Source: Clytia hemisphaerica (lineage: Eukaryota > Cnidaria > Hydrozoa > Leptothecata > Clytiidae). From it: DNA of 64,000 nucleotides. Positions 3,001-38,796 of the stretch are shown here, piece after piece. Numbering within the stretch: position 1 is the first letter of the stretch; the number at the start of each line of letters is the position of its first letter. The DNA lies in contig CACVBU010000050.1 of NCBI GenBank assembly GCA_902728285.1, forward strand, positions 3,372,919 to 3,436,918, in the 5' to 3' direction. The notes under the pieces are model-generated. The model worked only from the letters and a program-made list of their open reading frames with translations. It made no database searches and was not told the origin of the DNA. The position numbers and the translations under genes are program-made.

Positions 3001-6000
3001 TCTAGTGTACCTAATAGAAAATGCCGTGTCCGCAAAAAAATTTACATTATTCAAACTGAATTACCTCGCGATCTAGAAATCGAAACATTAAAAAAACGTC
3101 TAACCGTTTTCCGAAATCTTTTTAAGGTATTTTCTAATTTCTCTACTTTTTGTCAAAAACACAACGCTATTTTCTGATATTCAGGCTTCATCACAAAAAT
3201 TGAGTGAGATCATTCTATATTTTCCCTTTGAGAAAAAAGGCAAATTCGTCAACGTTCCAAGTAATAACTCGTGATTCATAAATTAACATTTTAGAAGAAC
3301 ATGATCAAACACGACCAACGCAATCCTCGACAACAAACGCCCAAAAACCTACCCAAACAGGCGCCCAACCACCCATGCAAAAAGCCGCCAAACAACCTGC
3401 CCAACCTGCCACCCAACAAGCTGTCAACGTCAAACAACCTACTCAATTGACCGCCCAACAAACTACTCAACCAGCCGCCCAAAAATCCATCAAACAACCT
3501 ACCCAATCAACCACCCGACAACCTACTCAACCAGTTGCCAAACAATCTCTCCAACAAGCCGCCCAACAACCTACTCTAATTGCCACCCGACAAGCCGCCA
3601 AACAACCTATTCAATCAACCAACCGACAACCTACTCAACCAGTTGTCCAACAACCTCTCCAACATGCCACCGAACAAGCCGTCAAACAACCTACTCAATC
3701 GACCACCCAACAACCTACCCAAAAAGCCACCCAACAACCTACTCAACCAGCCGACAAACAAACTTCCCAAAAAGCCACCCAACAACCTACTCCAACAGCT
3801 ACCCAACAAGCCACCAAAAAACCTACTCGATCTACTGACAAAAACATTGCGGAATCAATAGAAAGAATTGGTGCAGCTCTACGACAACGTCAACAAATAG
3901 AATCTATATCGGCGCAAAATACGACCGAGCCACCTCAAGGGTCCTCGGGGGCGACGCAAAGAATGCCTCATATACAACCGCAACAAAGACTATCTGCGCA
4001 ACCTGGATTATTTCCGCCACCGTCGGATAAATTTTCGTCACCACCAGTATTATCTTTACCATCACAAGAAGCCTCGCCACAACAAGGGGCTACTGTTTTA
4101 CCGCACGATGCAACTGATTCCCCGCAAAAAACACCTGCACCACCTACAGCAGCTCGAAACTTACCTGTGTCACAGCATCGAAAATTCATGCCCTGGCCAC
4201 AAATGACACCTGACAGACAGCCTTTTCCACAAACTTCGCCAACATCACTTCCTCAAAGTCCATCAGTCAACAGTCAGCCGGCTAAAACGCTATTGAAAAG
4301 ACCACTTGTTCAAACGCAAGAAAATCCTACCGCACCACAACAAACAACAGCTGTGTCACCGCAACAAAGGGTGCAGAGAAGAACGTTACCACAAACTTTA
4401 TTACCCCAAACAAATGCAGCTACCAGACAAAATGTCAAGCGGCAAAGAGACCACCCATCATTCATGTCACCGAATAGTCAAGAAAACATACCGGCACCAG
4501 CTCCAAATGAACCAACCGAGAAATCTAGAAAACCAATATCCAGTCTCACTCCGACGGAATCGAAAGCGAAAACAACAAACAGTCAAACCAAACAGATGAC
4601 AATGAATGAAAGACAAAATACAGAAAAAGTTCAAAACAAAGAGTGGGAAGAATTCAAAAATAAGATATTGCTTTCTGCGAAAGATAACGAACATGTTCTA
4701 CAATCACATAAAGACAACTTGCGTGAGCAGCTTTGTGAAGAGTACGCACCACCTTCAAAAAAGCCTGTTACCCAGTCCTCGGAACTCCTGAGTAAGGATG
4801 AAAAGCCTAAGGACATCCAACCAATGTGTCTGATTGTTGGGAAAGATTTAGCCCTTCCAGTGAAAGTAGAAAAGAAGAAACCGAAAGATAAATCTCAATC
4901 AAATGAGAATGATGGTCTACAAAAGTTTCGCGAACATTTAAAAAACAACGAAGAGCATATTCAGAACCTGGAAGCAGAACTTCAAGATTTGGATTCGATA
5001 ATGGCAAACTATGAAGATGACCAAAATCAAGAAAAAGAAGTGAACATGGGGGACGACGAAGATTCGTTGTCAGCAGACTCATCAGTGCATGAAGAACAAA
5101 CACTCAGCCGGTTGGATAAAATCCTCCTGGAGAACAGAAAGGTTCGCAAGGAACAACAACACGAAACAGGTTCTGAACAGTTGAATACTATTCGTCGAGA
5201 AATCGAACAAATGCGTTGCCAAATGAATGAATATGACAACCAGTTTCATCGACAACCTGGTAGCATTGAGAAAAATTTGGATGAAGCAGCGGCTTTAAGT
5301 AGACACATCATGGAACCTACTTCTTTACCAGAGATACAATTCAAATGTCAAACCGTCTCATCATGCCAACCTGACGAACCATGTCTGGACGAATCTCCAG
5401 TCAAAAGACCGGAAAGAAAATCCTTTTCACCTGAAACAACTTTCTACAACCTAAGAGAATATGGCGTTATCCCTGAACGATACAACTTCCCAGGATGTCC
5501 AGACAAAGCATTGACTCCTTCCAGAGAATTGGTCCACTTTCCCAGCATCGATTTCAACACTCCGTTGACATGTTTCACAGAGTTCCAGGACATTGAAGAA
5601 GAGACTCTATCAAGAGACGTGATGAAGGAAGCCTTATCAAACGAACTGCTTCAAGTCATTACACAGACATCACAAGAAGCAAATTCACCCGAAGAATTAC
5701 CACGCATCGCGTCTTCCACCCTTTTGTCTGATTTCTTGTCACGCTCTTCGCTCACCTTGAACGATTCCCGCCCGGCGGGTGGTGATTTCGGTGCTGTCGG
5801 ACAACGCCCTTCTAATGATAAAGAAGAAGAAAGACCAAATACTCTTGAAATTGAAAACGTAGAACAAGCAAAACCCGATTCTCCAGTCGAAAACATTGAC
5901 CAATCAAGAACAGATATTCCTGGTGAAAACATTGAACAATCGAGATCAGATATTCCTGGCGGAAATGTTGAACATGTGATATCGCGTTCTCCTGAAAAAG

Positions 6001-9000
6001 ATGAAAATGAAGAAAATGAGGTCGAAAACGAGGCTGAGAGGGTGATTTACAGAGAAGAGATCTTCTACGGTGACGAGGATCAATCAATAGATTACACTCC
6101 TGTACTTTGCAATTATATCAGTGGAGAGGAGTCTCTTTCGCAAGAAACGTGCGATTCTGAACAAGACACTGCAATCGATGCTGAACCATTTCAAGACGAT
6201 AACGATGAGCCAAAAGAACAATGGGACGAAGAAGAAGCTGAAGTTTACGAAGAACCACCTCAAAGACAACGACAAACAGAGATTGAGCCAGAGCAGCCCA
6301 TATCATTGGATCCAACATTGTGGCCTGAACTTATAAGTGACTACCCACCAATCAAGAAAACGAAAGCACCAGAGAAGCGAGCGCAACCAGCTATTGATGA
6401 TCATAAGGAAGATCAATCACGTGCTGAGTATCGTAAGAATGTTCACCAATCAATGAATTTTGTAATGCCAACACCAAAAGCTACTCGAGATGAACATCCA
6501 AAACAATCTCCACAGAAGAAAGCGGAACGAAAGAGAGGGAACATCGACAGTTTCTTTCTACCAGTCGAAAAGAAAGGATCACCAGTCAAGCTACCTCCTG
6601 CTGCACCATCCCACAATACAACCAGGATACCGTACTGCAACTTATCGAAAGAAGGGGATGAGAAAGGAGCCATGGTCTTGTATCTGACCACCAATAAGAA
6701 GGAAAAAGAAAAGACAGAAGGGAATGTGTCAACTTCAAGTCAGCAACAACAGGTTCCAGAATCACTTCCACCACAAACCACACCGAAGAAAAGTAAGTAA
6801 CCATTCTTTATTGCACTCCCAACAAGAAAATACCAACTACTTTATCATTTAGCTTCAGGAAACTCATGCGATTGCTCAATCAAAGTTTGGCACTACTATA
6901 TCTTTGGAATAACAAGAGTCGAATGAGTCAAGCTTTGTTGTGTTGTTTGAAATAAAATCTTCTCTTTGCTTATAGAAACGAATAAACCCGACAAAGAGGA
7001 GAAAAAGAAAAAGAATAAGAAGCAAAAGAAAAAGGAGAAAGAGTTGAATACACCCGTCAAACCTTTCATGAAAACTCACAAAACTGATGAAGACCAACCT
7101 GCAGCAATCACCCCAAAGCGCCCTAGACAACCTTCTGATCAAGAGTGGCTCTCACCTTCACTAGACATTGCACGAAACAAAAGTATGTTACCCTTCCCTA
7201 CTCAAGCGACGGTTTACACGCTTTTTTACAAGAATATACGCAGCATGATGAAATTGGCCTAAAAATTAAGAATATGCTAAGAATACCCATCATCATTGAA
7301 TTTGGCAAGTGAACCTAAGAATGCTATTTTTTGAGCATTTTAATTGCCAATTATACCCCAGAAATGCTAAAAAAATACAATATTCTTAATTTAAGTATGT
7401 AGTGCATGCTAGATTTAGACAGGGTTTGGATCCAAACATAAGAATACCGTAAGAATATTTAAGGATGATTTTCCCCAAAAAGTTAAGAATATCCATAATG
7501 AAATGGAAAAACACCATTAATAAATTTCAGTTGGGTAATCTAAAGACACTCAAACTTATTATTATATTGGTGAACATGAATTTAGTGATGTGTGAATTCC
7601 ATGTTATTAGAGTTAGGAAAAATTTTCTTTCAGGAAGCGAAGAATCTGAGATGAGGAGGAGGCTGGGGAGACTTTCAACATTCCGAGGTCCCAAATATAA
7701 TGAACATGCAAACGAAGTAGCTGCTATTTACCAAGAAAAACATCCTGACACGATCATGAATTTCAATACTTGTCTGACGAAAGGAAATCGGACAGATATT
7801 CATCAGTCTGTCAAGTGAGTTCGACATTTTTCATTTCTGTATTATTTCAATCTGAAACTTACCAAATCTTCGTTTGAGATGGAGAGTTTGATGATGACTG
7901 GCTTCTCTTCAGAGAGGATGCCCGGTTCTGTATTGAGTGGTCTGGGAGTCGTCTCGTTAGAACCGTCTTACGCTGTAGTTTATACTGAAAACCAGCTTGC
8001 ATGACACTAAGTGTGCTAACAGACGATGTAAGGATGTATAGATTCCCAAGAACATTTTTGTTTTGAACAATAATAATTTTTGAGGTTAACAACTTCTTGG
8101 TCCATAATTTTACAGAGAAATCAATCCGCGAAATACCCCTGAAGTGCAGAGTTTCCACATCACCATTCGACGATGTTTGGCGAATCACAATTTCCCTCAA
8201 TTATGTACAGATGCAAAGTCTGAACGAGTTGGACTTCTCAACATTCTCAAGAAGAGCTGCAAGGTGCTCAATGGTAAGTAAAAGGGTTTAATCTAAGCTG
8301 TGGTGTATGAAGAACTTTGTTTTATAAAGTCAGAAATCGATTTATGTTCAAGTCACGGACACGAGTCTTCTGTAATCAGGTTATGCTGTGTTTTCTTCAC
8401 TAAAATAGTAAGATTAACCCATCAGAGCCATATGGTTTACCAATAAATCTCTTTTTTTTCAAAAACAATTAATTTATTGGCTGAGTGATTTAATGTTGCC
8501 TACACCTAGCCTGTACAAAACTGTTTAGAAGGTTTGCCACACCGGTGCTCAAGATTGCCTGAATAAACAATTTTTAAAATCTTGTATTAAAAAAAGCAAG
8601 GTAATATCTATAACATGGTAAAATTAATCTTTGTTTTGTGGAACTTCAGATCGTTTCAAGGGACAATCTTCCCCGTTGACCTTCCACGATGAGCATCTTG
8701 CAGACTTGTTGAGGAAAGGCGTCATCAAACCTGAAGAGCAGAGTGAAGAAACTGCTTACTCAGCAACTTATAAAGGACAGGGTGGTCGCGTTCTTGTGTT
8801 GTTGAATTATATCGAACATTATCGCATCATTGTGTCTACAAGAAAAGGCGATCTGAAGGTAAGTATTATTTATGATTGTTGTTTACATGTTTTTTGGTCA
8901 GGCTCGTGTATGCTTAAGTTCTCAAAGCATCCAGGCATAGCTTATGCTTATTATATGCTTATGAATCATGCTTATAATTCACCCCGAGCCAAGTTTTAGC

Positions 9001-10590
9001 GAAATTTTAGAATTTTTTTAAAAATTTGCTCAGATTTGGGAGCAGTGGTAGCCGTGGAATGTCTTTTGTTCACTTGACCTCTACCAAACCTTTTTAAACT
9101 GATAAAAAATGACACCTTCATATGCTTATAAGCGTTGTGCTTATAAAAAAACATGTTTTAGACAAAATATAGAGTACTAGACTCTTTACCTAGTCCAAGC
9201 AAGGGTTTGACACTATTTCCCGAGTTTGAGATTTGTTCTGTAGGCTATGTTTGCGAAAACTACCTACTCCTCTAACCATTACAAGAAATATGAATAGTGC
9301 AAATGTAGCCAGTTATTTTCCAACGAATTCAAATATTTCTATCATTTCCAATTCTTAGCGATCATTTTCAGAAGCACAAAGCATTGTGTGTAGCATTGAG
9401 CAAGTGTTGACACCCAAGAACCTTTCATACGCTTTACACAAAAAGCTAGGCTACGTCAACCCTACGTCTATTGGACATGCTTTCAATTGCCACGTGGAAG
9501 TCACCTTTCAGTGTCTCGAGGTAAATTAATCTCATTTGTAAGGAACGAGGTAATGGGCTTTTCATACATTCATGCATTCAGTCTTCTGGACAGATAAATA
9601 AGCTGGGAATGTTTATGTTCAAGCTCATGGTTTTCTTTGTATCATTTGAATTAAGGGAACTATTCACAGAATCCGAAATGTTTGGCAGAAATTTGTAATT
9701 AGCAATATCCTTGATGAAGAAAAAGTTTAGTCCACCTGTTCATCAACTCAAAGGAGAGAAACTTTTACTACTTTGCATACATTTGGTGTTGAGCCTGATT
9801 TTTTGTTCTTCCTTCGTTATTGATTTGTTGTATTTCTTCGTTAACAGGATAAAGATGTATGCAAGTTCCTGAATGAGGAGGGGTTCGATGTCGTCCAAAT
9901 AAGTAAGTATCTCAAATACAGAATATCTAGTTTAAGTTTTCTGCTCCAAGATTATGGCACAGGTATTAATTTTCTTTTTTGAAATAGAGAAAAACAGAAT
10001 TTTATTGTACTATAGGGACCAACTTGACCTAAAACTTCCTTTTCTTCTTTCTTTCCTTCCTCTTCCTCTTTCATCGAAAGCCAATAACTGACTCGCACAC
10101 ATTCCCTTTCTTTCGTCTTTGAAAACACAGCATACAACAAACGATCGAAGAAGTACGTTTATCTCATCACAAACACCAAAGAATTCCAACAAGAGGTAAA
10201 CAAAATTATTTACGTCATTTACTCGACATGGGGCAATGGGTTCGAGTGGAAGAGCACACTAAGAGCGTGGTAGTTCCGGGGAGGAGCCAGATTCTGAAAT
10301 TCATCTGGAATTTCTTTCTACTTTGTTCTCTTTGGTTATGACCGTAAAACTAATCAAACCGTTTAGATATAAAGAATATTTTCTGAGCATTGCAATTAAG
10401 GTTGAAGAAATGACAATGAGTTTGTTGTCTCTGTTTATCTGCAAAAATATTTTCTTATTTTACATTTTACCAGCTCAAGGCGATGAAGTCCATGGATTAC
10501 ATCATTCAGAAATTGAGAAAAATCGAGAACGAATTCGAGGAGGGATATCCTTACTACCATGAGCTGTTGGTTCCAGAGAACGATGCATAG
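1..10590 (+). CDS. Large protein with disordered N-terminal region and C-terminal phosphagen kinase-like (pseudoenzyme) domain; 5' partial
   Basis: Thirteen exons join in phase: 1-163, 2322-about 2815, 2959-3126, 3185-3260, 3295-6792, 6976-7182, 7634-7814, 8116-8273, 8650-8858, 9359-9520, 9848-9902, 10131-10195, 10474-10590 (stop TAG). They encode at least 1850 residues; the start lies left of the window. The 3.5-kb exon encodes QPTQ-type repeats, a Pro/Gln-rich stretch, a Glu-rich coiled coil (near 4910-5290) and an acidic tail with QSRxDIPGENIE repeats. The last seven exons (~315 residues) follow the order of the ATP:guanido phosphotransferase C-terminal domain: a KEINPRN...ITIRRCLANHNF stretch, GGRVLVLLNYIEHYRIIV, TRKGDLKRSF, KLGYVNPTS and the final YVYLITNTKEF...MDYIIQKLRKIE helix. 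The reactive Cys of the CPSNLGTG loop, the NEED glutamates and the RGTGG loop are absent, so catalysis is unlikely. The end of exon 2 is uncertain (2812 or 2815 both keep phase). The assignment rests on remembered family patterns. Confidence 0.72.
1771..2300. mobile_element. Nested MITE-like insertions in intron 1
   Basis: The outer parts (about 1771-1825 and 2140-2298) match, in reverse complement, the element at 17918-18193: both carry GGAAGTG, TTTCGGAGCA, ACGGAGCAGTTCC and GAACATGGTCT blocks. The middle (about 1826-2139) is a second element. It starts TATCTGATATTCCGATGG and ends ACCAGATA, and a diverged piece of it lies near 236-390 (GATATCCCGATGG, CTTTAGCGTGTAGGAAGAA). The second element therefore seems to have landed inside the first. 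Confidence 0.5.
3300..3840 (+). repeat. Coding Gln/Pro/Thr/Ala repeat tract
   Basis: Within the long exon of the first gene, degenerate units of the type QPTQSTTRQPTQPVAKQ are encoded by repeated CAACCTACTCAA and GCCACCCAACAA blocks. The tract is low-complexity and presumably disordered. Long open frames on both strands here are by-products of the codon pattern. Confidence 0.85.
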
Positions 10591-11135
10591 TTTTTGATGA
10601 AATATTTTGTTTATGAAAAAATGTTTTTGGAAGTAACTTGAAAATAAGGAAAACAGTTTTCGACAATTTCTTCCCCAAAGGTTAAGTAGACCTATAGTTA
10701 TACACTAACCTCTAAAAAACCAGTGCAGGTAGTGTAGGAGCACGGATCCATTAGTGGATGCCAGCAGCCTTTGACTCTACTTGCCATTAATGCCCATTAA
10801 TATCAGATTGAATTTTCGTATGATGTATAATGTTGCAGTACAGGTTTTTTCATAAGAATGGTGTTTCTTATTTCATCAATCACATATATTCTTAACTTCC
10901 TCTAATTTTTCTTGTACTCCGTCAAAGATGAAATTGTGTTATTATCAAAAGTCAAAATAATACCATTTACATTAATCCCAAGAGCGATAACGAAAAAGAA
11001 ACTATTTTGTTTTGCATCCTCGTTTGCATCAAAACAATTTAATTGATATATGAATTTCTCAATTTTGATTTTAATTAGAAGACTGGAAGCGTCAAAACGA
11101 GCCGCAACATGTATCATAAAGATCTGACTAGCCTA
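10591..11135. other. Intergenic, no gene seen
   Basis: This AT-rich stretch follows the stop codon of the first gene. No coding signal is seen and no canonical AATAAA lies close to the stop. A CCAGCAGCCTTTGACTCTA block near 10760 resembles CCAGCAGCCTTTATCTGTTC near 19218, so some is dispersed repeat. Confidence 0.5.
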
Positions 11136-11255
11136 GTTAACTAAGCCCGTATTCACACGGCTAATGGCAATATAGCGTTTTCGGTGCTTTAAAAGGTTTT
11201 TTATATTTACGGATTTTAAGTTTGCCTTGGAGTCAGTCCATGGCGTTCTAAATTC
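11136..11255. repeat. Dispersed repeat, inverted copy at 35690-35835
   Basis: The blocks TAGTTAACTAAGCCCGTATT, GGCAATATAGCGTTTT and ATTTACGGATTTTAAGTTTG reappear as reverse complements at 35690-35835. The two copies are ~24.5 kb apart and no coding function is seen. Confidence 0.75.
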
Positions 11256-11580
11256 AAGGCCTAGCAAGCGTGCTTTGACGTCAAAATCCTGTGGACCTAA
11301 TTAATGATGTCATTGCAGTGTTGACGTCAAAAGAAAGAAAAAACTCAAGGTTTTATGTAGCCAGTACCCTCCCACAAACCAAATTTTTTCTTTGTTTTAT
11401 GGTCAGTTACTCTTTGAAGCGTTTGTCGAAAGTTATCGCTGTGCGGTGGAGGGGGACGTCGATTCCGTGCGCATTGGAGCTCAAAATGGTAGACCCTAGT
11501 AGTGCGGAGTTTAGGAGACAAAAAAAAAACAAAGGAATAATTATCGCAAATAACAATATTAAAACAAGGATGACTTTACT

Positions 11581-13660
11581 ATGCCTGATAACATCGATCC
11601 TCTGAATCTCTTCAGAAAATCAAGTCTTAATATAGCTCATTTAAACGTGAATGGCCTTAGGTCGAAGCTTTATTTCTTAAAACTTCTCCTTCACCAAGAA
11701 AAATTTGATATTCGATGTCTGAATGAGACTAAAATTGACTCGACAATCACTGATAGTGAAGTCTCTATACCTGGGTATTTACCCTGTAGGCTAGACCGCG
11801 AACATTCTTTCACGATGATTGATCCCAATTTTTCAAATAGCCCTCACGCTAAAGATTGTTCAATTGCTAATATTGGAATAAGTGACCATTCAATTGTTTT
11901 TCAAAGAAGAGAGAAACCAATATCAATAGACCAAGGACCATAACCGCCAGGTCCTTTAAAAACTTCAACCAAGAGGCTTTTCTCGAAGACCTAGGGAATC
12001 TCGACTGGTCTGACATGCTCAACTCTACTAATGTAGACGAGGTGGCTGATATCTTTAACACCAATGTGCTAGATGTACTTGACCGTTATGCTCCTATGGT
12101 TTAGAGAAGGATAAGTCATGATAGCCCTCCATGGGTCAACGAGGTACTACTTAATGTTGAAATTCTTAGCCGATCTCAATCAGGTTTCCGAAACAAGTAT
12201 TCAACTGATACAGCAGTTATTTGTGTGTCAGACTTTATATTAGAAGAGCTTGGGAAAGGGAAGTATGTTGGGACTGTATTAGTAGATCTCAAGAAGGTCT
12301 TTGACACAGTAGATCATAAAATTCTTTTAAAGAAATTATTCTGCTATGGATTTAGGGACTCCTCATTCTCCTGGTTTGAATCTTATCTGTCAGACCGTCT
12401 TCAATGTACACTCCTAGGAGATACTTGCTCGGACATGATGAACGAATGCGCATACGGGGTTCCACAAGGATCGGTCCTCGGACCATTGTTATTTCTCCTT
12501 TATATAAACGATATTGGTCAAAGTATTCGACCTTCTGTGTTCCACTATCTTTACGCAGACGATACCATCATTGCTGTCAGTTCTGACTGCCCCGTGAGGC
12601 TTAGAAAAGATCTATCTGGCCAACTTTCTGAAGTCGGACATTGGTTCAGCCAAAATAAACTCACGGTAAACACGGGCAAAACCGAAGTCATATATTTTGG
12701 AAGAGCAAACAAACTGAAGGAATGCAAGAGGTTGGTCCCTATCCAATTTCAAGGCGACACTCTTGAATGCAAGGAGAAAATGAAATATCTCGGTGTCATC
12801 TTTGATGAAAACCTAAAATGGGATGCCCAGGCAATAGTGCTCGCCAGAAAGCCTATCTCAAACTAAACAAAAGGCATCTCTAGCTTTCTTGAAGATCACA
12901 TGAAAAAAATGCTTTTAAATGCTCTTGTTATGCCACACATTACATATTGTTCCAATTCTTGGAGCACTATGTCAAAGGCAAACCACAACAAGTTTGATTC
13001 AGTCCTGAGCAACATCTCTAAAACCATGCCCATCAATAAGACACAAGTATGCAAGGACGTGAAGGTCGAACCGACATCGACCACCTTGTCAGGGGAGACT
13101 TTTGAAACTAAAACGACCAACATCCAAGACCATGCTCGTCTCGACATTGCTGCTAGGGGATTTTGGATTCCTGGCCAGAAGGCATTCTTCGACGTAAGGG
13201 TTTCAACCCAATCGCCAAAAAGTTCAGGAATTCCACTATCTCCAAAGCATGCAATGCAAACGAAAGGGATAAAAAGAACATTTATAATTCAAGAATCATG
13301 AAAGTTGAGCAACGTCTCTAAAACCGTGCCCATCAACAAGACATTTGATCAGATTGTCGAATACAATAAAACACTGATGATGTTCAAAGGGATGCGCAAC
13401 ATTGCGCCAAAATATTTGTGTGATCGGGTAAAGCCTGCTAGCGAGCGACATGAACGCCGCACTCGCTTTGCAAGAGAGAATAAAGTCTTTGTCCCTCTTT
13501 CCAAAAACACTTTTGCTAGTCGAACGTTCATTACCTCAACCACACATCTGTGGAACAATCAACCTTTAGAAATAAAACAATGTGAATCCCTTTTATCGTT
13601 TAACACTATTTTTATTAGGGGGGTGTTTTCCACAAGCCTAGCACTCTTTTGCTAATAAAA
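11581..13660 (+). mobile_element. Degraded non-LTR retrotransposon (LINE) with endonuclease and reverse transcriptase remnants
   Basis: 11581-11940 encodes an AP-endonuclease-like start (LNIAHLNVNGLRSK, CLNETKIDS, then ISDHSIV) that has lost its middle. 12180-12866 encodes the reverse transcriptase core: FRNKYSTDTA, VLVDLKKVFDTVDH, GVPQGSVLGPLLFLLYINDI and the catalytic YADDT. 12900-13043 and 13306-13655 encode the C-terminal region (APKYLCDRV, TSTTHLWNNQPLEIK). Stops, frame changes and large deletions show it is dead. The order endonuclease-RT fits the CR1/jockey group broadly; the clade is not resolved. Confidence 0.88.
13044..13305 (+). mobile_element. Fragment of another retroelement ORF inserted in the LINE, flanked by a 38-bp direct repeat
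   Basis: The 262-bp insert reads TTNIQDHARLDIAARGFW then FFDVRV before its frame shifts. This is the same kind of ARLDI-GFW-FFDVRVFNP segment that I recall as common near LINEs in cnidarian genomes. The LINE sequence at 13006-13043 is repeated at 13306-13343 with three mismatches. The repeat looks like a long target-site duplication. Confidence 0.65.
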
Positions 13661-15231: not shown

Positions 15232-18200
15232 ATGCAGAGAATATTTTTGTTAGTGCTGGTCGTTGGATTGGCAGCTTGCCATCGAAGGCATAAAGGTAAG
15301 GAATTTTGAATGATTAGTATTTTTGAGCACTGTACTATGCAATTTGTTTTTAAGGAAACACCCACTTTGAAAGAAACATAATCGGGTGCAAGAATTAGAC
15401 AAAAGTAAGGGTAAGACATCACTTCCTGGACTAAATATTCACATTCCATAGACTTTGTCGGGACATTTCCGCTGTTTTTTTTAAGATAACCGGCCGAAAA
15501 TTGTAAAGGGTTTTTTCCAGATTTTCTTTATCAGATTGGATGATGCTCGCCGGATATTTAGTCTTTTTTTCGCTGAAGAATAGCAGTGGAATTTTAGTCC
15601 GGAAAGTGAATGACAAGTGAATAACAATTTCGTTTTATAAAAAAATTATTTTCCTTCATTAGGGGGCAAAGAGAGATGGAGAGAGACAAATGAACGCTTA
15701 TCATTCCAACTTCCAAACGGTAATGACTTAAATTTCATGAAATATTTTGATCAAAATTTAAAAACGAAGTACTGGAAAATAAATTTTCCATCTGTTAGGT
15801 CGATTTCTAGCGTTTTCGAGCACTTTCTGAAAGTAACTTTTTCATTTAATCGAGTATAACTTTTGATCTAATGAATCGGAATTTTAAGATTTCGAGAAAA
15901 TTAGTCTCAAAGAGAGGCGTACCCCCCGGGGGGGGGGGGGCACTCGATCTGAAATCGACCATACGTTCGGCCCAAAATTTGGCTTCTAAAATCGGACCCT
16001 TACAGTGCAGTGAATTTCCATGAAAAAATCATACCCTTTCAGTGCACTTTTTAAAAATTTCTCGCCCGTAAGGGCGAAAATTTTTGCAATTTTCCAAGAA
16101 AATGTGGAAATTCTCCTCCAAAATTGACCAATTTTGTGATAATTTTACCAAAAAATTGGCCTTTTACCAAAATTTCCTACCCTTACAGTGCAGTTCAGTG
16201 CAGTCTTGTAATTTCATACCCTTACAGTGCACTAGCTGAACTATGAAAAACCTACCCTTAAGGGCCGAACGTCTGGTAGGTCATTTACCTTGAGTGCCCC
16301 CCCCCCCGGGCGTACCCGCTACTTTTTCCTAAAGTCAAAGTTTCATCGATTACAGGATATTTGTTGAATCTCGTAAATCAAGACAAATTACTATATAGAT
16401 AAAATTAATCTTCCCTTACAGAATGTAAAATAGCTATCCATACCAGCGATGAAACATGTCAAAAGGATAGACTGACCGATATTGCGAGGGCTCGATATTG
16501 GTACATACTTTCAAATGAAAACACCAACATTGATTTCCCTTTGGCTCATGAAATCCCATGGTTGGCCCATAACTTAACGGCGGTTAATTACTATTACGCA
16601 TTGGATCCATTCGAATCGCGATACATGGTACTTCTCAGCACCTGGATTTCCGCTATTATCACCACAATTACGCCAGCCATAACCAAGGCTTTCGCAGGTG
16701 TCTCTTTCGAGTCCAACCAAGAGTATGTTGCGTGTTATGGTGCTTTCCAGAAGGCCATACAGGTACCAGGCCTAAAACTTCTTACAAACGTAGTACATGA
16801 AGCAAAGGACTAAGGTCGTTTAGAATTCATGTAATACAGAAATATGGATGTTATATGATAATACAATACTTGTTAAGGGATATAATATTAGTTTGTATAC
16901 AATTGACTATAATTTGTATACCATCATTTTTTTGCTTATTTTCTAAAATGTCTGAATTAGTCGTAGCATAGAGGTCAATAGACCTGCGAAATATATTGCT
17001 ATAAAATAAAATGCTAGACTAAGGATAATCAGGACTGGATAATATGAAGTTATGTATGATTTATAATGACAGTTTATTATGAAGCTTAACCCTATTAGCC
17101 CCAAGCTTTTTTGACTTTTGTATCCCCAGGGGGGGGGGTAGAATCTACCACCGTCGATTATTTTCGATCTAGAAGAGCTATGGCCATGAAATTTGGTACA
17201 GATGTTCTCCATCATGATACAATTTTCCAGGAAGAAAAAAAAATTTGATTAAGTCATTCAAAAACTGATGACGTCATCACAAAATTTCAACCTGTCGGAA
17301 AAAAGCCCAAATATATGGTTTACAAAAATGTATATTACAGTCGAACCAATAAAGATATTTCAATTATGTTTGAAGATTCTGAAAGATAAAAGACTGTTCT
17401 TTAACATAATTGCCGGTTTCGCAAATTCCATGAAGAGTTTTTCTTAAAATCTATGCTGAAGATGAGTAAAATTTTCAAAATTTGATGACGTCATAAATGA
17501 TGACGTCAGCATTTTCAAAAATTTTCTTTTAATTTTTTAAATTTGTATTATCAATGCCTATCACGTGTCAAAATTTGAAAATGATTGAATAAATAGTTTA
17601 GAAGTTATCAGCACTTTAAAATTTTGAGTTTTAAGCGATTTAAGCTGGGTTTTATGTCATGTTTCACAATAAAGTCATAAAACCTGATCTGGACAACCTA
17701 TGACCCTAAAATTATGCACAAGTACTCGTAATAAGATTTTATTAAAAGTCAGAAAGTTTCAAATCGTTTGAAAAATTTTTCTCCGAGATATAAACAAAAG
17801 AACTCCAGCGTGGTAGATTCTACCCCCCCCTGGGGCTAATAGGGTTAAGAAGACTCCACTTTGGAATTTGTTTATGGAATCCCATTCTCAGTAAAAAAAG
17901 ATTCCTTTCACAGTATAAGACCACGTTCACACGCTACGTTCCGTTTCGTTCCAAAACGAAACGATTCCGAAACACTGTGTGAACGTCAAAATTGGAAACG
18001 TCAAAAAAGCAGACGTTACAAAGCAAAACAGATCGAAACGGTTTCGCTCCGCTATTTTCATTGGAACGGAACTGCTCCGTTTTCTTGCTCCGAAACGTTC
18101 CGAAATGAGTATGAGCACTTCCTATCCGTAACAATTACCCAACAAATACCACACCGGAGCGATACGAAAGCGTAACGTCTGAACATGGTCTTAGATTTAA

Positions 18201-21200
18201 TAAAAACTTCTGTATTTTCAGGCGCTTCAAGCCCCGCAATACTTTGGCAATCCTGCAGAGTATCCCGACTTTACGGATCACATCACCAATGGTTATTACC
18301 TGGAAGACGATGCGTTTGTTCAACGAAGACTTGCGGGACAATGTCCTTTCCTCATTCAAAAAGTCATCACTGAGGGTAAAAAACATCGCACATACGTTTG
18401 ACTCTTGCTAATTCGAACTATAGAAATAATTTTTAACTGTTTTCCTCTTAATCGGATTATAGAAAGATTCGAATAATATAAGATCGAATTAAAGAGAGCC
18501 GGCACTGCAGTGAAAGATATCCGAAAGGGTCCCAAAAAAGGAAACATCTGACGAAAATTGAACACAAAATTTCATCTTTTCACATCACCATTTCTTTTGT
18601 TCTCTCTGATTTTCATTTTTCAAATTTCCTGATTCATTATCCTCATTTATTGACAGGTGAGAGAGGGTTCAAGCTGGACGATTTGATGCCTATGTTGAAC
18701 CAAGACTTTTTTGAGACGTTCGAGATGAAATATTCCGATGAAATGGTCACCATGGAAGAGGTATTTAATAGACTAGTTTATAATCCTCGTAAGACAGTGA
18801 ATATGGGTAGTGTATGATAATAGGATGGTTGTTAAGGGGTAACATTAGTTTTTATAAAGTACTATTATAGACTAAAATAGACCTTATCGGAGTTTTCTAT
18901 TTTTCTAAAAAAGCGAGGAATTCCTAAGAGATTTCTATTGTAATACACTTGAAACAATCCCACAATGCATCGCTTTTTCAGAAAAATCAAAAACTCCGAT
19001 AAGGTCTATTTGTCCCTTCTACTATCTTTTGGTGATTTTCTACAGTGTCCGAATTAGTTTTCTCCAGTCGTTTGGTACCTTCAATCATACATCAGAGTCT
19101 TCATGTAGCTCAAATTTCTTTAAAGTTTAAATACATTTTCCGAGCCTTCAGTTAAAGTGAAGTACTCTCTGAACTAGTCTGATTCGCAGACCTAAACAAA
19201 CCACAGATGTGAATACCAGCAGCCTTTATCTGTTCTACATAACAGTTTTGCGTACCCTGCATGTGTTTGGGTTCTATTAGACTGGCGCGCCAGTCGGGCT
19301 GGAACGGTATCACACGGGAGAAGTGAGCGCAGGAGTTAGGTAAGTGTAGGAAGAAATTTTGTCGGCGGCAAGGGCTGAAAGCTGTTAATCAGCAGCCTCT
19401 CAGCAACTTTTACTTGTTCTCCTACGCAGCTCCTATTTCAGCAAACGCCGCCGCCTTTATGTTCCCACTCTCTGACATGATTAATCAACAGACTAGTTTG
19501 CTAGTCTAGGGTTCTAGAAAAGGAGCTATATGGTTCACTAAAGTTCATATCTTAAAGGATCTTCCTTTCTGTTTCAGGCCATCAATCATCACCGTCTGTT
19601 CGTCCTCAATTTACCGAACATGAAGGACATCCAGAATGCACCGGACGCTCACGGTGATCTGTACACCGACCGTAAACTCTCTCCTCTCACTTCACCGATC
19701 TCATTCTTTCTGTTGGGAGATGATGGTTTGTTGAAACTGGTGGCCATCCAAAGATATCCCAAATCATGTAAGTAGACCTTTTCTTTTAGCTGAGCGAGAC
19801 CAATCTTTTCTTTTCACCCTCTAAATTAACAGCTATTCACTTCCTTTTTAACGTTGTCGTTAAGCATCAACGTCTTTGAAGAAAATTGAAAATATCAGTA
19901 CTTCAAATTCCTTATCGTTCCAGCTTCTGAAGTGTACACACCATCAAGTGAAAAGAACATCTGGTCGTTGGTCAAAGGAGAAGCTGAGCTCGCATCTGAC
20001 ATGTACTGTCAATCAAAAATTCACTTAGGAGGCGTTCATTTCGTGTCCACCATCTATTGTTTGTCCTTTAGACGACATTTAAGCACCAAACACCCTCTCT
20101 ACGATTTCTTTAAATACCATTGCGAAGGGACTGTCCCTCATATCACCACAGTCTTCGGGACTTTGACCACCCCCAATAGTTTGGGTAGCAAGCTTTACGG
20201 AATGGGAAGTGAAGGACTCGTCAAATTAGCCAAACAGAGTTATGATGAGAGAAATTATGAACACTCCACCTTCGACTTCTTCATTAGGGTATGTATTTTT
20301 TTCTACTTACTTTGGAGTCTATATGACACACAGGAACACTACTTTGTTCGAGTCACGGAAACTTTTAGATAGGGAACAAAGTTTAATAGGCATTGATTGT
20401 TAACTGAAGGGACAAGAAAACTTGTTCGAGTGAAGGAGACATTCGAGTTGTACAGGTGAGAGTTAAAAAGACTCGATTCTGTATACGTAAACTTTATTTT
20501 TAGGAAAGTCTCGAGGTGTAGTTTTTACCTTTATAGCGGTAATCGAAAAGAGGGGTAAATCACCGCACTCCATAGCATAGTGAGCTCATTGTGGATATAT
20601 AGATATGGTTAACCCTAGAATATGCTATCGTCTAAGACAAATCACCATCTAAGAAATAAGCCCAAAGCTGAAGAAAATTCGCAAACAGGCTTTTTTGCTG
20701 AAAAGAGTTTACAACTGGTAGAGTTTGTCAGTCTTCGAAACTCTCCCGCCGATTTTTTTCTGTATACCGCCATAACGCCAAACCGCCCTATTTTCCCGCT
20801 TTTACTATCACTGTAGACGATAACATCGTCTAGGTTAACCCTCGCCAACCTTCTTTTTGTTTTACCAGGGTCAAGGTTTAGACGATACTCGAATCAAGTA
20901 TTACCCTTTCCGTGAAGACGCCATTACATTGATGGGAGAGTTCAACATCTTCATTGAAAATCTTCTGAGGCGTTATTATGGATCAAATTCTCATCGCGTC
21001 CGCGCGGACAAAGAATTGCAATCATGGGTGAACGAATTGTCCATTGATGGGAAAATTCAACCTGATGGCGGAAAAGGAAAGGTGAGAGAGTGAAGTCATT
21101 TGAAATTTATCCCTAGTTTTTGACGTCTAAGAATTAATTAGTCACAGAAGTGAACAATGAATCTGTCAATTGTTTTTAACTTTGGACTACATCACAGAAA

Positions 21201-24650: not shown

Positions 24651-27600
24651 TCAAATATGGACGCTATTTGTCAGCCATTTTGGTTCCATGATTTGATAAC
24701 CCAATTGATTTTTGGCTTTACGTTCAGCATTTCTTGTTTCTAGCTTCTTTTGGACGATGGTGTTCAAGCGATAAAAAGCTTTGCGCACAATTCGTCGGTA
24801 TGTCGGGTTTGTGATATCTTTCCAGTATGAGAAAATCCTGTTCACTCGGAAATTGGCCAGCAAACCTCTGAACATCATATATTGCTGAAAAGGAATTTAA
24901 TTTTCAAATTAATTATATAGATATGGTATTAACAAAACCCATGCGGCCAAGCGACCAAGCCCTGTAAACGGTCTAAGTTATAACCTAGGATTTGTAGATA
25001 TAAAACACCCTATTGGTTTACTCAACTTTCAGCTGATAGTTTGAAAGTCTTCAAATGAAAACCACATAATGAGGCCCCCCCAGCGGTTGGCGTGATGGCG
25101 TGATGGAGGGTTTTTCGTGGCGTGATGGCGTGAAATTTTGAAAAAAAACGGCGTGATGGCGTGAAAATGAAGTGCCGGCGTGATCGTGAAATCGAGATTT
25201 TTTAGGCGTGATGGCGTGAAATTTTCAGTTCAGCGTGATCGTGAAATTATATTTATTAGTTGAATTGTATTTCTATGTCCATTTTAGCCAATTTAGAGGG
25301 TTTAAATTTCAAAATTTTCTTGGTCGGCCCTAACTATGGTGGGGCCTCCTATAGATTAGATTTCATTTTAAAACATAAAAGAAACGGTGCAAACAGTTCT
25401 ATTCATCTGTCATTTATCCTTGTAACTTCTGATTGTTTTTAGCAGTTGCTAGCTAGTCTTCAAAATAAAGTCGAATGCTATGAGAGGGTCGAAAATTGAA
25501 ATTTTTTCCCGTCAGCGAAAACCATGGTTGCGCTTTCTCCGTAACTAACATTTCCCTCTCTTTCTTAGATGCTTATTCTTAGATGCATCCAAGACATCAG
25601 GTCCTTTATTTCAGGAAAATATACATTTGTAGCAAAGCCATAAACAGAAAGAAGCAACAGGTTTATTATGAGGGTGTAACTTAAGCAGATTGATCAAAAG
25701 AATCTGTGATGTTTAAACCATATTTTGGAAAAAAAGAGAGTAAATGAGGGCGATTTTAGCCATACTAAATTAAAAATTTCTCCTGTCGGTGCAAACCATG
25801 GTTGCGCCTCCTCGTTCCCCTTTTGAAAACTTTTCACGCTAATTCACAATTAATGTACTTTTAAAAGATTTCCATTATTTTTACATGAGTTATTTTTCAA
25901 ATTGAATTGAAATGGATCCCAAAATAGCACTTTGAACCCTTCAAAATTCAAAAATTTTCTCCGTTACCCAACCATGGTGGGCTTTGTCAATTTACTCAAA
26001 CCGGTGCCCTTTGATGTGACCAGTTGTCCAACAATGTTTTATATGCATAAGTCAAGATTACGTCATTTTTCCTATCGGAAACACCCGAAAAAACTGGAAT
26101 TTACCCCTGTGTATTACTAAAAATAGAAAAACAGATGTCAAATTTCTTCCAGATTTTTCGGGTGTTTCCGATAGGAAAAATGATATAATCTTGACTTGCT
26201 TACGCGTATGAGAATGCCGATGAAAAACTGATTAACGACCAAGCACATACCTATTTGTGTTTATATATAACAAAAATTATGAGCATGAAAATAAATTTTC
26301 TAGGCGTAATGGCGTGAAATCGAAAGAAATTGGCGTGATCGTGAAAATCAAATTTTTCAGGCGTGATGGCGTGAAATCGAAAAAAAATTGGCGTGATGGC
26401 GTGAATTTTGGGTCCGCTGGGGGGGCCTCCATAATATACTCACAACATTGTAAAGTTTCCCAGTAAGAGCTTTCAATAAGGGCAGGTCTGTTCCATCTAG
26501 ATTTTGATAAAGTCTAGTGGGTGAAGTTGGCATGAAATCTCTGTAATCAGGATAATTTGCTGAAGTGTGGAACAAGTTAATCCACAGAAAGCGTTTTAAG
26601 AACGTCCTCAACTGATCGCATGTTTCGAACTTTGCTGGAAAACCTTTCATCTAAATGAAATAACAATAGAGATATTGGCTGGGAAGAAGAAGAAGAAAAT
26701 ATAAGCGCGAAAACAAATTTCAGGTGTCGGAAGTGTATTCAAAGAGATACATGTAAGGAAGAAGGTCAAAAATTGAAACTCTTCATTTTTAGCAAAACAT
26801 TGTCTTGAGTTTCGAGTTTGGTAATACACTCTCAAAGCCAACGCAGACCTGTTACGCACTGGGAAAAAAACCCAAAAATTAAACCCTGGTAAACAAATAA
26901 TATCCAGTTGAAAAGCTTTAATTTGGAAAATGAGACATGGGTTTGGTGACATTTAAACACATTCCACACCTTTCCTCGCCCAGCATCAGGTTGAACCGTT
27001 CCTTCAGGCGACAACTCGTTAGCCCATGATTGTAATTCAGCGTCCCTGTGAATTCTTCCTCTTCTGTAATAAGTCTTGATGATGTCATCGATGAAAGTCT
27101 CGTATTCTTTCATAATTTCTTTGACGTCATCACGGAAAGGGTAATATTTAATGTCCTCGTCATCCAAACCGTTACCCTGGAAACGCAAAATATTGGATTC
27201 TTTAAAACAAGATTCTAAGGGATAGTTTCAAAGTCGGTAAGAAATATTATGTACGCATTCTAGATCATATTATGAGTAAATTTACAATTTTGCATAAGCC
27301 ATTTAGTTTAAAAAACTACCCCAGGTCAAATCTTAATAAAGGTAAAACGCCTTTACGCATTGTTCTTACCTCAATGAAATCTTCATAAGTGTTGCTTTCA
27401 TAATCTCGTTCTGCAAAAGCTTTTTGCGACAAATCAAGAAAACCTTGATTCCCGGTTCCGTAGATGACACTACCCGCAGCATTGGGTGTGGTCAAAGTCT
27501 CAAAGACTGTGGTGATATGAGGGACAGTCCCTTCACAATGGTGCTTAAAGAAATCATAGAGGGGGTGCTTGGTGCTCAAATGACGTCTAAAGGACAAACA

Positions 27601-30123
27601 GTAGATGGTGGACACAAAATGGACTTCTCCGAGATGTATTTTAGCTTGACAATAAAGGTCTGATGCCATCTCAGCTTCTCCTTTAGCTAAAAGCCAATTG
27701 GAACTTTCTGGTGTATCAACTTCGGATGCTGGAAAAAAAGAAAAGTTTTAAATACTAGCTTTCAGTTTATTATCTCAGTGCTTTGTAAAGTGATTGTGCG
27801 GAAAGAAATCTTTTTTTGTTTTATAGAATTACAATCGAGAAAAGATGTTTTCGTCAGTAGTTACTTGGATCAAGTTTCCTCTTCCACTCAAATCCCATAC
27901 CTAATCAAAGATAGAGTTCAAACATACTTTGAACAGGATTTCTTTGGATCGCAACTACGTGTAAAAGTCCGTCATCTCCCAACACAAAGAACGATATCGG
28001 TGACTTGACGTCAGCAAGTTTGCGATCTTGCAATAGCGGTGCGAATACGTCGGGTACGTTTTTAATGCCCACCATTTCAGGGATGTGAAGTACAAACAAT
28101 CGGCCGTCCTCAATCGCCTATAAATAAAAAATAAATACAAAGTTTTGAAAAGTTGAATCTTTCTCTATTTGATTTAAGGCAGCACAATAATGACTGGGTT
28201 CTAAGAGCCCCCCGAACGGTTTGTGTGATGACGTGATAAGGACTTTTTTGTAGCGTGATTACGTGATTTGGATTTTTTTTTGCGTGATTGCGTGATCAGA
28301 GGTCAAAACGTGATTACACGAAACGTAAAAATTTTTTGAGCCATGATACGTGATTTGGACTTTTTGGACTTCGTGATCATGATTGAAGACAAACAATTGT
28401 GTCATATCGTGATCAGAGTTACCGCTAGGGGGAGGGGGGGGGCTGTTCTAAATTTATACTCGTCGCGAAAGCAATAGTTTAATAAAAAAGTATTTCTGGA
28501 AGAATTAAATTGTAATTACCTGTTCAATAGACACAGATTCTGTAGCAGAATATTTCATTTCAAAGTCTTCAAAGAATTTGGTGTTGACTAAAGGTTTCAA
28601 ATCGTCCACGTGGTAGCCTTTGCCATCTGTAAGAAGAAATATTTTTCTGTTATTGAATTTAAAAAGAAGATATGGAGGAAGGTTAGCATATGGTAGTGTT
28701 CACTTCTTTAAAACTTCGTTGGGGAAAATTTTCGTCGGGGAAAAATTCGTCACTTGCTGGTAGTTGGTAAACGCATTAAGGCCGGGGAAAATTTTCGTCA
28801 GGGAAAATATTCGTCACTTATCCAAAATTTCGTCACTTTTTCCCGACGAAGTTTTCCCTGATAAGGGGCATACGAAATAAGAAAAAAAAGAAAAATCATC
28901 TCATGAAGATTTCTTCAAGGTACCTTCATCATCAACGACTTTCTTCAAGAAGTAGGGACATTGACCAGTCAATCTTCGTTGAGTAAACGCCTCGTCAGTT
29001 TGCCAGTGACCCGTCAAAACATGGTCTGTGATTGTAGGGAATTGCGATGGGTTGGCAAAATATTGTGGTGCTTTTGTCGCCTACACCAAAAGAAGAAGTG
29101 AATAATTTATTTTTAAACATGAAATGTCGGAGAGAATAAAACTTCCAGAAATGTTCTAGAAAACTCTCAATGTGATTGAAAAGATAAGTAATATCGGGAC
29201 ACAACAAAATCATTTGTTCAAGTTGTGCAAATAGAAAAGCGCACAGATGAAGAGGACAATTAAGAAAAAGATTTTCTCACCTGAACAGATTGCTGCCATG
29301 CTTTATAAGCAATCGCATATTCTTGCGGGCTTTCGAAAGAAGTCGTGTTAAAAGCAGCAGTTAAACCAGGGAAGACGGTGTTTAGCAATATGTTTGTCCA
29401 CGTTTGAAGAAGCACTAAATGTCTCGATTCAAATGGATCCAAGGCGTAATAATATTTGGTTTCAGATAGATTCTGCGCTAACCAGGGAATCGTTGAAGCC
29501 AAAGGAAAATCAATGTTGGTGTTTTCATCGGAAATTTTGTACCAATATCGAGCTCTTGCGATATCGGTCAGTCGCTCTTTCTGACAGTTACGACGTGCAC
29601 CGACTTTGACAGGACATTCTGATAAAAAAACGAGAAATGTTTAAAAAAATAACGACACTGAATTTTGACTCTTGGGAAAAATAAGATATAAAAAATATGT
29701 TTGACCCTTAACGCGTGAACCTTACTTTTGCCCTATTCCCTGTGTTAAGGCGAAAATTGGGCGGATTACGTTAGAAACTTCAAATCACTCACCTCTTGGT
29801 ATTGAAGTGCGACGAGAAGACCTGTGGGATCTTTTATTCTTCCAGCGTCCCAACACCATCTTTGTTAATTTTGCCAAATCTTCGTCTAATTCTGAAATAG
29901 AAACAAAATTATAATCTTTAATACAAGTTGGCTGATAGTTTGAAAATGTTCCACATACTAATGATTAAAAGAGTTAACTATCGTCACGCATGAAAATATT
30001 TCTCCTTTTTTAGGCCTGGGGAAAGACGTAAATTAAACAACACTTACTCGTTTCATCCTGGTGAAGTGTGGAATGACATTGTGCTACCACCACACATGCA
30101 AGTAGCAGGGTTACAACCTTCAT
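24651..30123 (-). CDS. Secreted lipoxygenase, copy 2, with Cys at the first iron-ligand position
   Basis: Ten coding exons in transcription order: 30123-30048, 29891-29793, 29618-29281, 29080-28924, 28626-28520, 28117-27928, 27728-27370, 27176-26970, 26650-26444, 24884-24651. They sum to 1974 nt, 657 residues, with the same exon phases as the + strand copy; the 190-, 207- and 234-nt exons are identical in length. It begins with a signal peptide (MKVVTLLLACVVVAQC). The marks are DEAFTQRRLTGQCP, SPISFFVLGDDGLLHVVAIQ, CQAKIHLGEVH (Cys349, His354), HPLYDFF, YYPFRDDV, HTSANY (His539, Asn543) and terminal Ile657 (NSVHI). As in copy 1, the first of the three iron-binding His is Cys (codon at 27649-27651). 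A lipid-oxidising role is expected from the family; activity is doubtful without that ligand. The paralogues share an Arg/Trp-containing stretch near the N-terminus that differs most between them. Confidence 0.92.
25071..26429. mobile_element. Inverted-repeat element with GGCGTGATGGCGTGAAA subterminal repeats (large member)
   Basis: The ends GAGGCCCCCCCAGCGG and CCGCTGGGGGGGCCTC are exact inverted repeats. CATAAT flanks both sides (25065-25070 and 26430-26435) as a 6-bp duplication. GGCGTGATGGCGTGAAA-type units are repeated near both ends. The interior has four diverged ~200-300-bp units, each with a CCATGGT or CTATGGTGG core after a TTTTCTCCGT-like block. No transposase is seen. It lies in the last intron of lipoxygenase copy 2. 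Confidence 0.85.
26049..26197. repeat. Hairpin-like inverted repeat nested in the larger element
   Basis: AAGTCAAGATTACGTCATTT and its complement bracket ~45-bp arms containing CCTATCGGAAACACCCGAAA, with only a few mismatches. A half-copy of the arm (GGGTGTTTCCGATAGGGAAC) lies near 40700. Confidence 0.85.
28205..28445. mobile_element. Small member of the GTGATGACGTGAT element family
   Basis: It begins GAGCCCCCCGAACGG and ends CCGCTAGGGGG...GGGCTG, with TTCTAA on both sides (28199-28204 and 28446-28451), again a 6-bp duplication. Subterminal GTGATGACGTGAT and GCGTGATTACGTGATTTGG units mirror those of the element at 25071-26429. Confidence 0.8.
28700..28865. repeat. Short repeat cluster GGGGAAAATTTTCGTC
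   Basis: The unit GGGGAAAATTTTCGTCRGGG followed by AATTCGTCACTT occurs twice directly and once inverted (CCCGACGAAGTTTTCCCT) in intron 5 of lipoxygenase copy 2. Confidence 0.6.
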
Positions 30124-31940: not shown

Positions 31941-33262
31941 CTAAATATAACTATCAATAACATTTTTCCATTCCACACGATTCAAAGCTTTCCCATACCA
32001 CTCACATTTCAATATACCAACTTTATTCAAACTTTTGTAAACTCCACGCCCATACGTGAATTCAGGGGCCCCGCGTGGGCGCCTTTCGCTAACCCAGCAT
32101 GTCAGCATCTTACGGGGCAAACGATCAGAGGGCATTCGGGTTACGTGCCCTAACCAGCGTAGTTGGCGACGTGTAACATATACATCAATAGAGAGCAAAC
32201 CAGTGCGCTCAAGCAATTCAGCCGTCGAAATTCGGTGGGATCTCACATGATTTAAGTTAACACGGCATATGGTGCGGACACAACGAGCATGAAAAACTCT
32301 CAACTTTCTATAAACAATTTCAGTAAGGCACCAGTGCTCAGAGCCATATAACAAAATCGCCAGAACAATGCCTTCGTAGACAGATTTTTTTGCTGCGAAC
32401 GAAACATTAGTAGAACGGAATAAACAATTTCTCAAAGCTCCAAACGCACTGCTGGCTGCTTTTATTCTCGACTCGACGTCAAGGGTATCTTTACAATCAC
32501 GCGATAGGATTGACCCCAGGTAACAAAAACGATCGACGATCGGCATATGGGATGCATCATCGATTTTGACATTACCAAGATTCGTATTATCGAAAGACAG
32601 GGGATCGGTATAGGTTTGGTTCGGAGCAGAAACAAACAAAATTTCAGATTTAGAGCTTTTCTCTTCGGTACCAACATGGATTTCTAGACCGAATCTTAGA
32701 AAATGCTTGACTAGTGGTGGAAGGTAGGTTTCGACAGAGCTTCTTGATGTGAATAGAACTCCGGTATCGTCAGCATACTCAGAGTCCGGTAACGAAAACT
32801 GTTCACATTTTTTAGTTGAAGGTCGTCTACCGGTTAGGATATCGTCAAACTTGGTGTGAAAGATACAGACTTCTCGTGTGTGAGTGGTTCTCCAAGATAT
32901 CATTACAGCAGCAAGGTAGAAAATGAAAAGGAGTGGACCCAGTATATCACCCTGTTTGACACCAATTATACTTTCGATCCTTTTAGTGATGTCATTTACA
33001 ACAAACTTAACTTCCACATTTGCGTGAAGTGATTTAAGCAGACGTACAAGTTTATCAGGGACACCAAAAATATATAACACTTCCCAGAGAAGCTCGCGCG
33101 GTACTCGATCAAAGGCTTTGACCAGGTCGAGAAATAATATCCAAGTCTCTTGGCCATGTTCCCTGCGCTTTTTCATTGCCATTTTTACTGTGAAGATCCC
33201 GTCAACACATCCACGCCCAGGACGAAAGCCGCACTGGGGTTCATGGTCAAGGATCTGCTACC
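31941..33262 (-). mobile_element. 5'-truncated LINE reverse transcriptase with a long open C-terminal frame
   Basis: The frame from about 33262 starts CGFRPGRGCVDGIFTVKMA and continues for more than 430 residues. It shows LFLDLVKAFDRVPRELLW, GVKQGDILGPLLFIFYLAAV, the catalytic SEYADDTGVL and the C-terminal RRQLRWLGHVTRMPSDRLPR stretch. The LINE start, including any endonuclease, is missing; upstream the frame is closed. The long undamaged frame implies a recent insertion. The clade is unresolved. Confidence 0.9.
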
Positions 33263-37311: not shown

Positions 37312-37361
37312 AAAAATTGTCAGAAACTTTGTTTTAAATTTACTCTAAATTTTGCGTCATT

Positions 37362-38708: not shown

Positions 38709-38796
38709 TCCTTTTTTGATATTTGAGGATTATCTTAACTCGTTTGCATTTTTATTCCTGAAAAAACAAAAACAGATTATACAATGTAAGGTGTGA

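Follow-up and report, generated by a model that had tools for sequence, protein, structure and literature searches.

A degenerate phosphagen-kinase domain appears to cap a long, largely disordered protein in the hydrozoan Clytia hemisphaerica

What could a phosphagen-kinase fold be doing at the end of a long disordered protein once the residues that make it an enzyme are gone? The question is raised by a gene at the left end of a 64,000-nucleotide stretch of Clytia hemisphaerica DNA (hereafter the window; GenBank assembly GCA_902728285.1, contig CACVBU010000050.1, positions 3,372,919 to 3,436,918, forward strand). An earlier note on this stretch had described a degenerate phosphagen-kinase catalytic domain closing a huge disordered protein, and this description held in the present analysis: a match to Pfam family PF00217, inspection of the motifs, and a single open gene model all agree with a domain of this kind ending a long, disordered-looking protein. 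The reading that we favour, with a probability of roughly 60%, is that the pseudoenzyme cap folds and serves a large disordered scaffold as a module for binding or pairing. That the scaffold is nuclear is a possibility to which we give much less weight.

The last 315 residues of the predicted protein were searched with the ATP:guanido phosphotransferase profile, a hidden Markov model search that the earlier note had proposed as a check, and PF00217 matched at 44.1 bits (E 2.1e-11; gathering score 22.4). The match spans residues 106-297 of the 315 (192 residues) and positions 7-202 of the 203 in the profile, and exons 6-8 alone gave 37.1 bits. The exons were also scored against a custom profile made from four peptides of this genome and arginine kinase 7re6, with 2,000 shuffles as the control. 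Exons 6-11 together scored 51.4 bits (top shuffle, 7.3). None of the 2,000 shuffles was as good as exon 6 alone (10.4 bits; best shuffle, 5.7), exon 8 alone (11.4 bits; best shuffle, 4.8) or, by a narrow margin, exon 7 alone (5.5 bits; best shuffle, 4.7). Exons 9-11 alone were weak (1.6 bits), with 69 of the 2,000 shuffles as good. These scores argue that the phosphagen-kinase similarity is real, collinear, and spread across the exons, being weak only at the terminal end.

In a single-sequence search of the PDB with the last 315 residues, arginine kinase 7re6 ranked first (E 0.0032), followed by further arginine kinases, and creatine kinases appeared from E 0.17. The cap may derive from either kind of kinase, with rank and pairwise identity placing it nearer to arginine kinase: 59 of 207 aligned residues are identical to 7re6, compared with 54 of 239 for L003 and 38 of 182 for L009, two creatine-kinase-type genes of the same genome. 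By domain descent, as read from its sequence, the cap belongs to the phosphagen kinase (guanido kinase) superfamily. The N-terminal phosphagen-kinase domain, PF02807, gave no match in the Pfam scan. All of the last seven exons had been said to follow the order of the catalytic domain, which is true of exons 6-11, but not of the first of the seven, exon 5 (7634-7814), where no similarity was detectable. A hidden N-terminal domain in exon 5 had been suggested by eye (NFNTCLTKG, to be compared with FDTCIQTG of L010, an altered creatine-kinase-like gene described below). This candidate was rejected, as 164 of 1,847 scored shuffles equalled or bettered exon 5 against the N-domain profile, and 213 of 1,856 did so with L010 added.

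Alignments of the cap with 7re6 and with the custom profile located the losses. Several stretches of arginine kinase are kept (GDLK, LGY/F, PT.(L/I)G, and VY.I(S/T)N). The kinase-like domain begins in exon 6 (8116-8273), which reads QSFHITIRRC where kinases have (S)SRVRxGRS, with (S)SRVR replaced by SFHIT. In exon 7 (8650-8858), NYIEHYR replaces NEEDHLR, so that the Glu pair of NEED is aligned with Tyr-Ile, and the exon ends in KGDLK where 7re6 has GGDLK. The LGYVNPTSIGHAFNCHVEV segment of exon 8 (9359-9520) aligned with the corresponding stretch of 7re6. The C-P-(S/T)-N-L-G loop has become NPTSIG, preceded by a two-residue deletion, and the Cys is aligned with Asn. The flexible RGTGG/RGTRGE loop is not kept in exon 10 (10131-10195), appearing as a gap in the 7re6 alignment and as unlike letters in the custom-profile alignment; VYLITNTKEF of the same exon aligned to VYDISNKRRM. 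The alignments thus bear out what had been read at these places, namely, the Cys loop as GYVNPTSIGHAF, the NEED motif as NYIE, and the RGTGG loop as gone.

The Glu pair of NEED and the reactive Cys have catalytic roles. A cluster of four arginines, Arg124, Arg126, Arg229, and Arg280, is reported to guide ADP/ATP in (PMC12467219). In the cap, the arginine that follows the Cys loop is replaced by Asn. We take the four listed positions to correspond to His, Thr, Arg, and Asn, respectively, in which case only Arg229 is kept (1/4). With the Glu pair, the Cys, the RGTGG loop, and all but one of the four listed arginines gone, it is very unlikely that the cap is catalytic in the known manner. The term pseudokinase, used in the earlier note, therefore seems apt at the level of residues. 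The cap lacks five features of a phosphagen kinase as an enzyme (PF02807, the Glu pair, the Cys, the full set of four arginines, and the RGTGG loop), and a protein predicted to be of this kind should not be named a phosphagen kinase. Arginine kinase (PF00217 plus PF02807) is collinear with the cap through the catalytic domain, whereas the window protein differs from it in these losses (among the arginines, at the Arg124, Arg126, and Arg280 places) and in the fusion of the cap to ~1,445 other residues.

The gene to which the cap belongs was modelled as eleven plus-strand exons between window positions 1 and 10590, with edges placed by consensus splice sites and reading frame. The exons join as a single open frame; all introns are GT...AG, and the lone stop codon is terminal. 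Exon 1 (1-163), cut by the window, is an open frame ending at the donor GTAAGT. A start codon is proposed 12 bases beyond the left end of the window (L013:9908); it would give a basic N-terminus, MARKRVRRKPKKSK..., and a 1,760-residue product that opens MARKRVRRKPKK. This start codon is a proposal only, because two further in-frame ATGs occur upstream of it, where the frame reads MKQYFVYILWIYLFFLLIIFDMLQNFYD. Exon 2 (2322-2777), exon 3 (3295-6792), and exon 4 (6976-7182) encode most of the long N-terminal part. Exon 5 is a linker before the kinase-like domain, exon 9 (9848-9902) was placed by splice sites and frame, and exon 11 (10474-10590) encodes a final helix-like stretch and the stop codon TAG. 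The protein has 1,756 residues within the window, or ~1,760 counted from the proposed ATG, and not the "at least 1850" first estimated. The exons earlier outlined at 7634-10590 are real by their consensus splice sites and open frame, and one edge had to be corrected: a start at 9372 for the eighth exon brings in in-frame stops, and 9359 (acceptor ...cttag) is the correct position.

Gln, Pro, Glu, Lys, Ser, and Thr are abundant in the first 1,442 residues that the window encodes. By the charge-hydropathy rule, applied in fourteen 100-residue steps (residues 1-1400), 13 of 14 steps fell on the disordered side, two of them narrowly (401-500 and 901-1000). The sole exception, residues 101-200 (35% ILVFWMYC), is encoded by exon 2, which is more hydrophobic than the rest of the long N-terminal part. 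Exon 3, with ~1,166 codons of low complexity, opens with a Gln/Pro/Thr repeat of 24-base units (~3340-3828) and encodes RGNIDSFF, a motif resembling the PCNA-interacting peptide (PIP) box, at residue 1291. Exon 4 is lysine-rich (KKKK, KKQK, KKEK, and KRPR) and nuclear-localisation-like. Short basic patches occur near the protein start and at residues ~1345-1427, with isolated ones between. The Pfam scan of exons 1-3 gave nothing above cut-off (the top match was DUF3671, 17.5 of 34 bits, in exons 1-2). Exon 2 had three weak matches in the PDB, none convincing (best E 0.53), and the segment 4620-6790 had none at E <= 1. In the genome (417 Mb, 951 contigs), the single match to exon 2 at E <= 1 was exon 2 itself.

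A duplicate of window positions 3340-11859 lies on another contig of the genome (G000:C419, ~2378599-2389620). It includes the introns, is truncated at its 5' side and broken, and aligned with several unaligned gaps; exons 1-2 are absent from it in the alignment with the window. Its non-triplet insertions and deletions outside the repeat include losses of 17 bases in exon 3, 11 in exon 6, and 4 in exon 9 and a gain of 65 in exon 10, and five of its codons read as stops in the window frame. When the last 315 residues were searched against their own genome, the window gene and this copy were the only matches at E <= 1. The letters of the copy are the same as those of the window at the named catalytic substitutions, except at the Arg280 place, which is Asp in the copy and Asn in the window. 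Because the copy carries them too, the catalytic losses predate the duplication and are not sequencing errors. A plus-strand stretch with a reverse-transcriptase frame (11563-13655; PF00078, 101.5 bits) adjoins the 3' side of the gene, and the stretch preceding its reverse transcriptase (to 11859) is shared with the duplicate.

Comparison of the window with the duplicate showed 26 differences at 914 compared sites in exons 5-11 and 165 at 2,436 in the seven introns that lie between exon 4 and exon 11 (Fisher P 5e-6). Substitutions were counted after exclusion of gapped and stop codons, of the repeat at 3295-4026, and of 5975-6529, with half-counts rounded; for a dead twin compared with a fully constrained gene, a ratio of nonsynonymous to synonymous rates (dN/dS) of ~0.5 is expected. 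For exons 5-11, dN/dS was 0.39, and 10 of 25 changes were synonymous, compared with 5.2 expected (15 were nonsynonymous; P 0.022). The corresponding values were 0.57 for exon 3 at 4027-5974 (18 of 53 synonymous, 11.5 expected; P 0.028) and 0.24 for exon 3 from 6530 together with exon 4 (8 of 15 synonymous, 3.2 expected; P 0.007). The three regions combined gave 0.44, with 36 of 93 changes synonymous against 20 expected (P 1.2e-4). The synonymous excess in the tail and the kinase-like exons alike argues for constraint. Values around 0.5 point to constraint on the window gene, and to its twin having possibly shared that constraint for some time.

Ten in-frame junctions, together with constraint in both parts, support the prediction that the disordered part and the kinase-like cap are one protein. 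Under the favoured reading, a single transcript would encode ~1,445 mostly disordered residues, with Gln/Pro/Thr repeats and lysine-rich basic patches, followed by the cap derived from a phosphagen-kinase catalytic domain. The cap descends from an enzyme but no longer has the residues with which to bind ATP and transfer a phosphoryl group. It would still fold and, like many pseudoenzymes, would act without catalysis, in binding or self-pairing. The apparent retention of the domain though its catalytic parts are gone suggests a binding role rather than that of a catalyst. The basic patches might point to a nuclear location or to an association with nucleic acid; there, the cap could dock one partner while the long tail gathered others. 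Should the fusion prove to be transcribed and conserved, it would show that a phosphagen-kinase fold can survive without catalysis, and the partners of the cap would offer a simple handle on a disordered protein that cannot otherwise be read; confined to one lineage, it would be a curiosity of gene evolution.

Several observations weigh against this reading. The best single-sequence match in the PDB is modest, three chance matches to Ly49 receptors (from E 0.14) stand among the 30 PDB matches up to E 1, and the charge-hydropathy rule classes the cap as folded by a small margin only (0.025). Few changes underlie the selection tests, and the copy bearing each change is not assignable without an outgroup. 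A duplicate that was functional for a time before breaking would also satisfy these tests, and the exon 3 ratio is about the value for one neutral and one constrained copy. An undetected transcript end or start could divide the fusion: AATAAA is present in introns 3 and 4 (6951 and 7519), and neither AATAAA nor ATTAAA was found beyond the last stop codon, in 10591-11200. The nuclear part of the reading is weak, since basic patches are frequent among disordered proteins and the usual Gln is missing from the PIP-box-like motif. PCNA-binding proteins typically carry the consensus Q-x-x-h-x-x-a-a, and RGNIDSFF, with the hydrophobic and aromatic positions present and Arg instead of Gln, departs from this canonical form.

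The last doubt about the transcript leads to an alternative in which two adjacent genes, one for the disordered protein (exons 1-4) and the other for a separate, short pseudo-phosphagen-kinase (exons 5-11), have been wrongly joined. The AATAAA within intron 4 would suit such a division, as would an open frame from 7453 that leads into exon 5. The exon 4/5 junction itself speaks for a single gene: its donor is GTATGT, its acceptor is CAG, and the phases agree. All ten junctions hold one frame, and both splice sites of the exon 4/5 junction are preserved in the C419 copy. The polyadenylation-like signals are a poor guide at this gene because none is seen past the final stop, in 10591-11200. On this evidence, we consider two genes unlikely.

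In a bolder version of the favoured reading, the phosphagen-kinase domain would have been recruited as a docking module, dedicated and non-catalytic, of a large nuclear scaffold that might touch PCNA via RGNIDSFF; this proposal is distinctly doubtful.

The locus as a whole might instead be decaying into a pseudogene, its changes being meaningless. Such decay would account for the heavy loss of catalytic residues, and the sister copy on C419 is indeed broken. The window gene, however, runs for 1,760 codons without a stop or frameshift, unlike the copy with its non-triplet indels and five stop codons; the combined synonymous excess is significant, and exons 5-11 have changed less than their own introns. 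Decay of the window gene is therefore highly improbable.

The bacterial protein-arginine kinase McsB has a weak profile likeness to the cap: NCBIfam McsB models matched residues 70-233 (E 5.1e-7) and 71-229 (E 6.9e-6) at 29.1 and 25.5 bits, far under their equivalog cut-offs of 385 and 500. McsB is an active, stand-alone enzyme without the N-terminal phosphagen-kinase domain. That the cap might retain an unusual kinase activity of the same type, for example on protein arginine with rearranged catalytic residues, is scarcely credible given these scores and the active-site losses, even though McsB shares with the cap the want of a detectable N-terminal part.

Among protein kinases, pseudoenzymes are well established, and pseudoenzyme fusions are familiar. 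Full-text literature searches, with most subscription journals outside their scope, returned no phosphagen pseudokinase or comparable fusion in the titles and abstract openings among the matches listed. As far as this literature extends, a phosphagen-kinase fold as a pseudoenzyme fusion is unfamiliar, and nothing in it contradicts the earlier note, which had called the fusion undescribed.

Within the genome, PF00217 gave 35 exon-level matches (best, 172.6 bits). This search ran exon by exon, and the window gene itself was not among its matches, so other equally worn domains could be missed. Exons with NEEDH and CPSNLG were read at thirteen loci (L001-L009, L011, L012, L014, and L015, of which L012, L014, and L015 overlap), and RGTGG was observed in L001-L009, L012, and L014. 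Only motif-bearing frames were displayed, which shows that intact exons exist rather than whole genes. The creatine-kinase-type genes of the genome (L001-L009 and the C18 cluster) share the domain family of the window gene but carry exons with intact motifs. Common intron positions with these creatine kinases were considered as a sign of origin and discarded, as none matched in both place and phase when splice contexts were compared by eye. The creatine-kinase-type genes L001-L008 looked much alike by eye and lie on eight separate contigs; they may be a dispersed recent family or, in part, separately assembled alleles.

One further locus, L010 (G000:C374, minus strand, ~3356-6359), is a divergent creatine-kinase-like gene and a second candidate for altered activity. 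It reads NREDH and CPSGIG in place of NEEDH and CPSNLG, and 44 of 172 aligned residues are identical to the window cap. Unlike the cap, it keeps the Cys and the N-terminal domain PF02807 (75.2 bits), and its PF00217 match is strong, at 100 bits. A hydrophobic stretch, WVWASGGLAAGCILTVCV, lies in an upstream open frame. Outside this genome, one stretch fitted the search pattern in a collection of viral contigs and 17 did in a collection of genome contigs, with no relatives in either; these collections hold viruses or prokaryotes and are uninformative on other animals. A search with a GFP profile gave no match, which is not proof that the gene is missing and argues only weakly against a reef coral as the source. 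A tektin exon reached 320.9 bits with one chain of 8snb and at most 295.1 with the remaining chains, a result that assigns it to no particular lineage.

The rest of the window carries several other genes and repeats. Two similar lipoxygenase-like genes lie in opposite orientation, at 16409-20372 (plus strand) and 26832-29640 (minus strand). Three lipoxygenase-like exons matched PF00305 weakly (22 to 25 bits; cut-off, 23.6), and for the exon at 27316-27747, other PDB lipoxygenases outscored the allene oxide synthase-lipoxygenase chains. A second stretch with a reverse-transcriptase frame (PF00078, 74.1 bits) lies at 31941-33257 on the minus strand. The minus strand at 33974-42672 contains very similar tandem open frames of ~455 residues (37362-38729 and 41296-42672) and a third, broken-looking one (33974-35328) split over two overlapping frames; no Pfam family scored above cut-off for 34519-35328, 37362-38729, or 41296-42672. 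A gene for THO complex subunit 1 occupies 43824-45896 on the minus strand, with PF11957 matching in two exons at 138.7 and 173 bits. A minisatellite at 55608-59394, with ~188 copies of the 20-base unit TGGGTAGATGGATTGGATCA, is probably the reason for the strong guanine-cytosine skew of the last 8 kb of the window.

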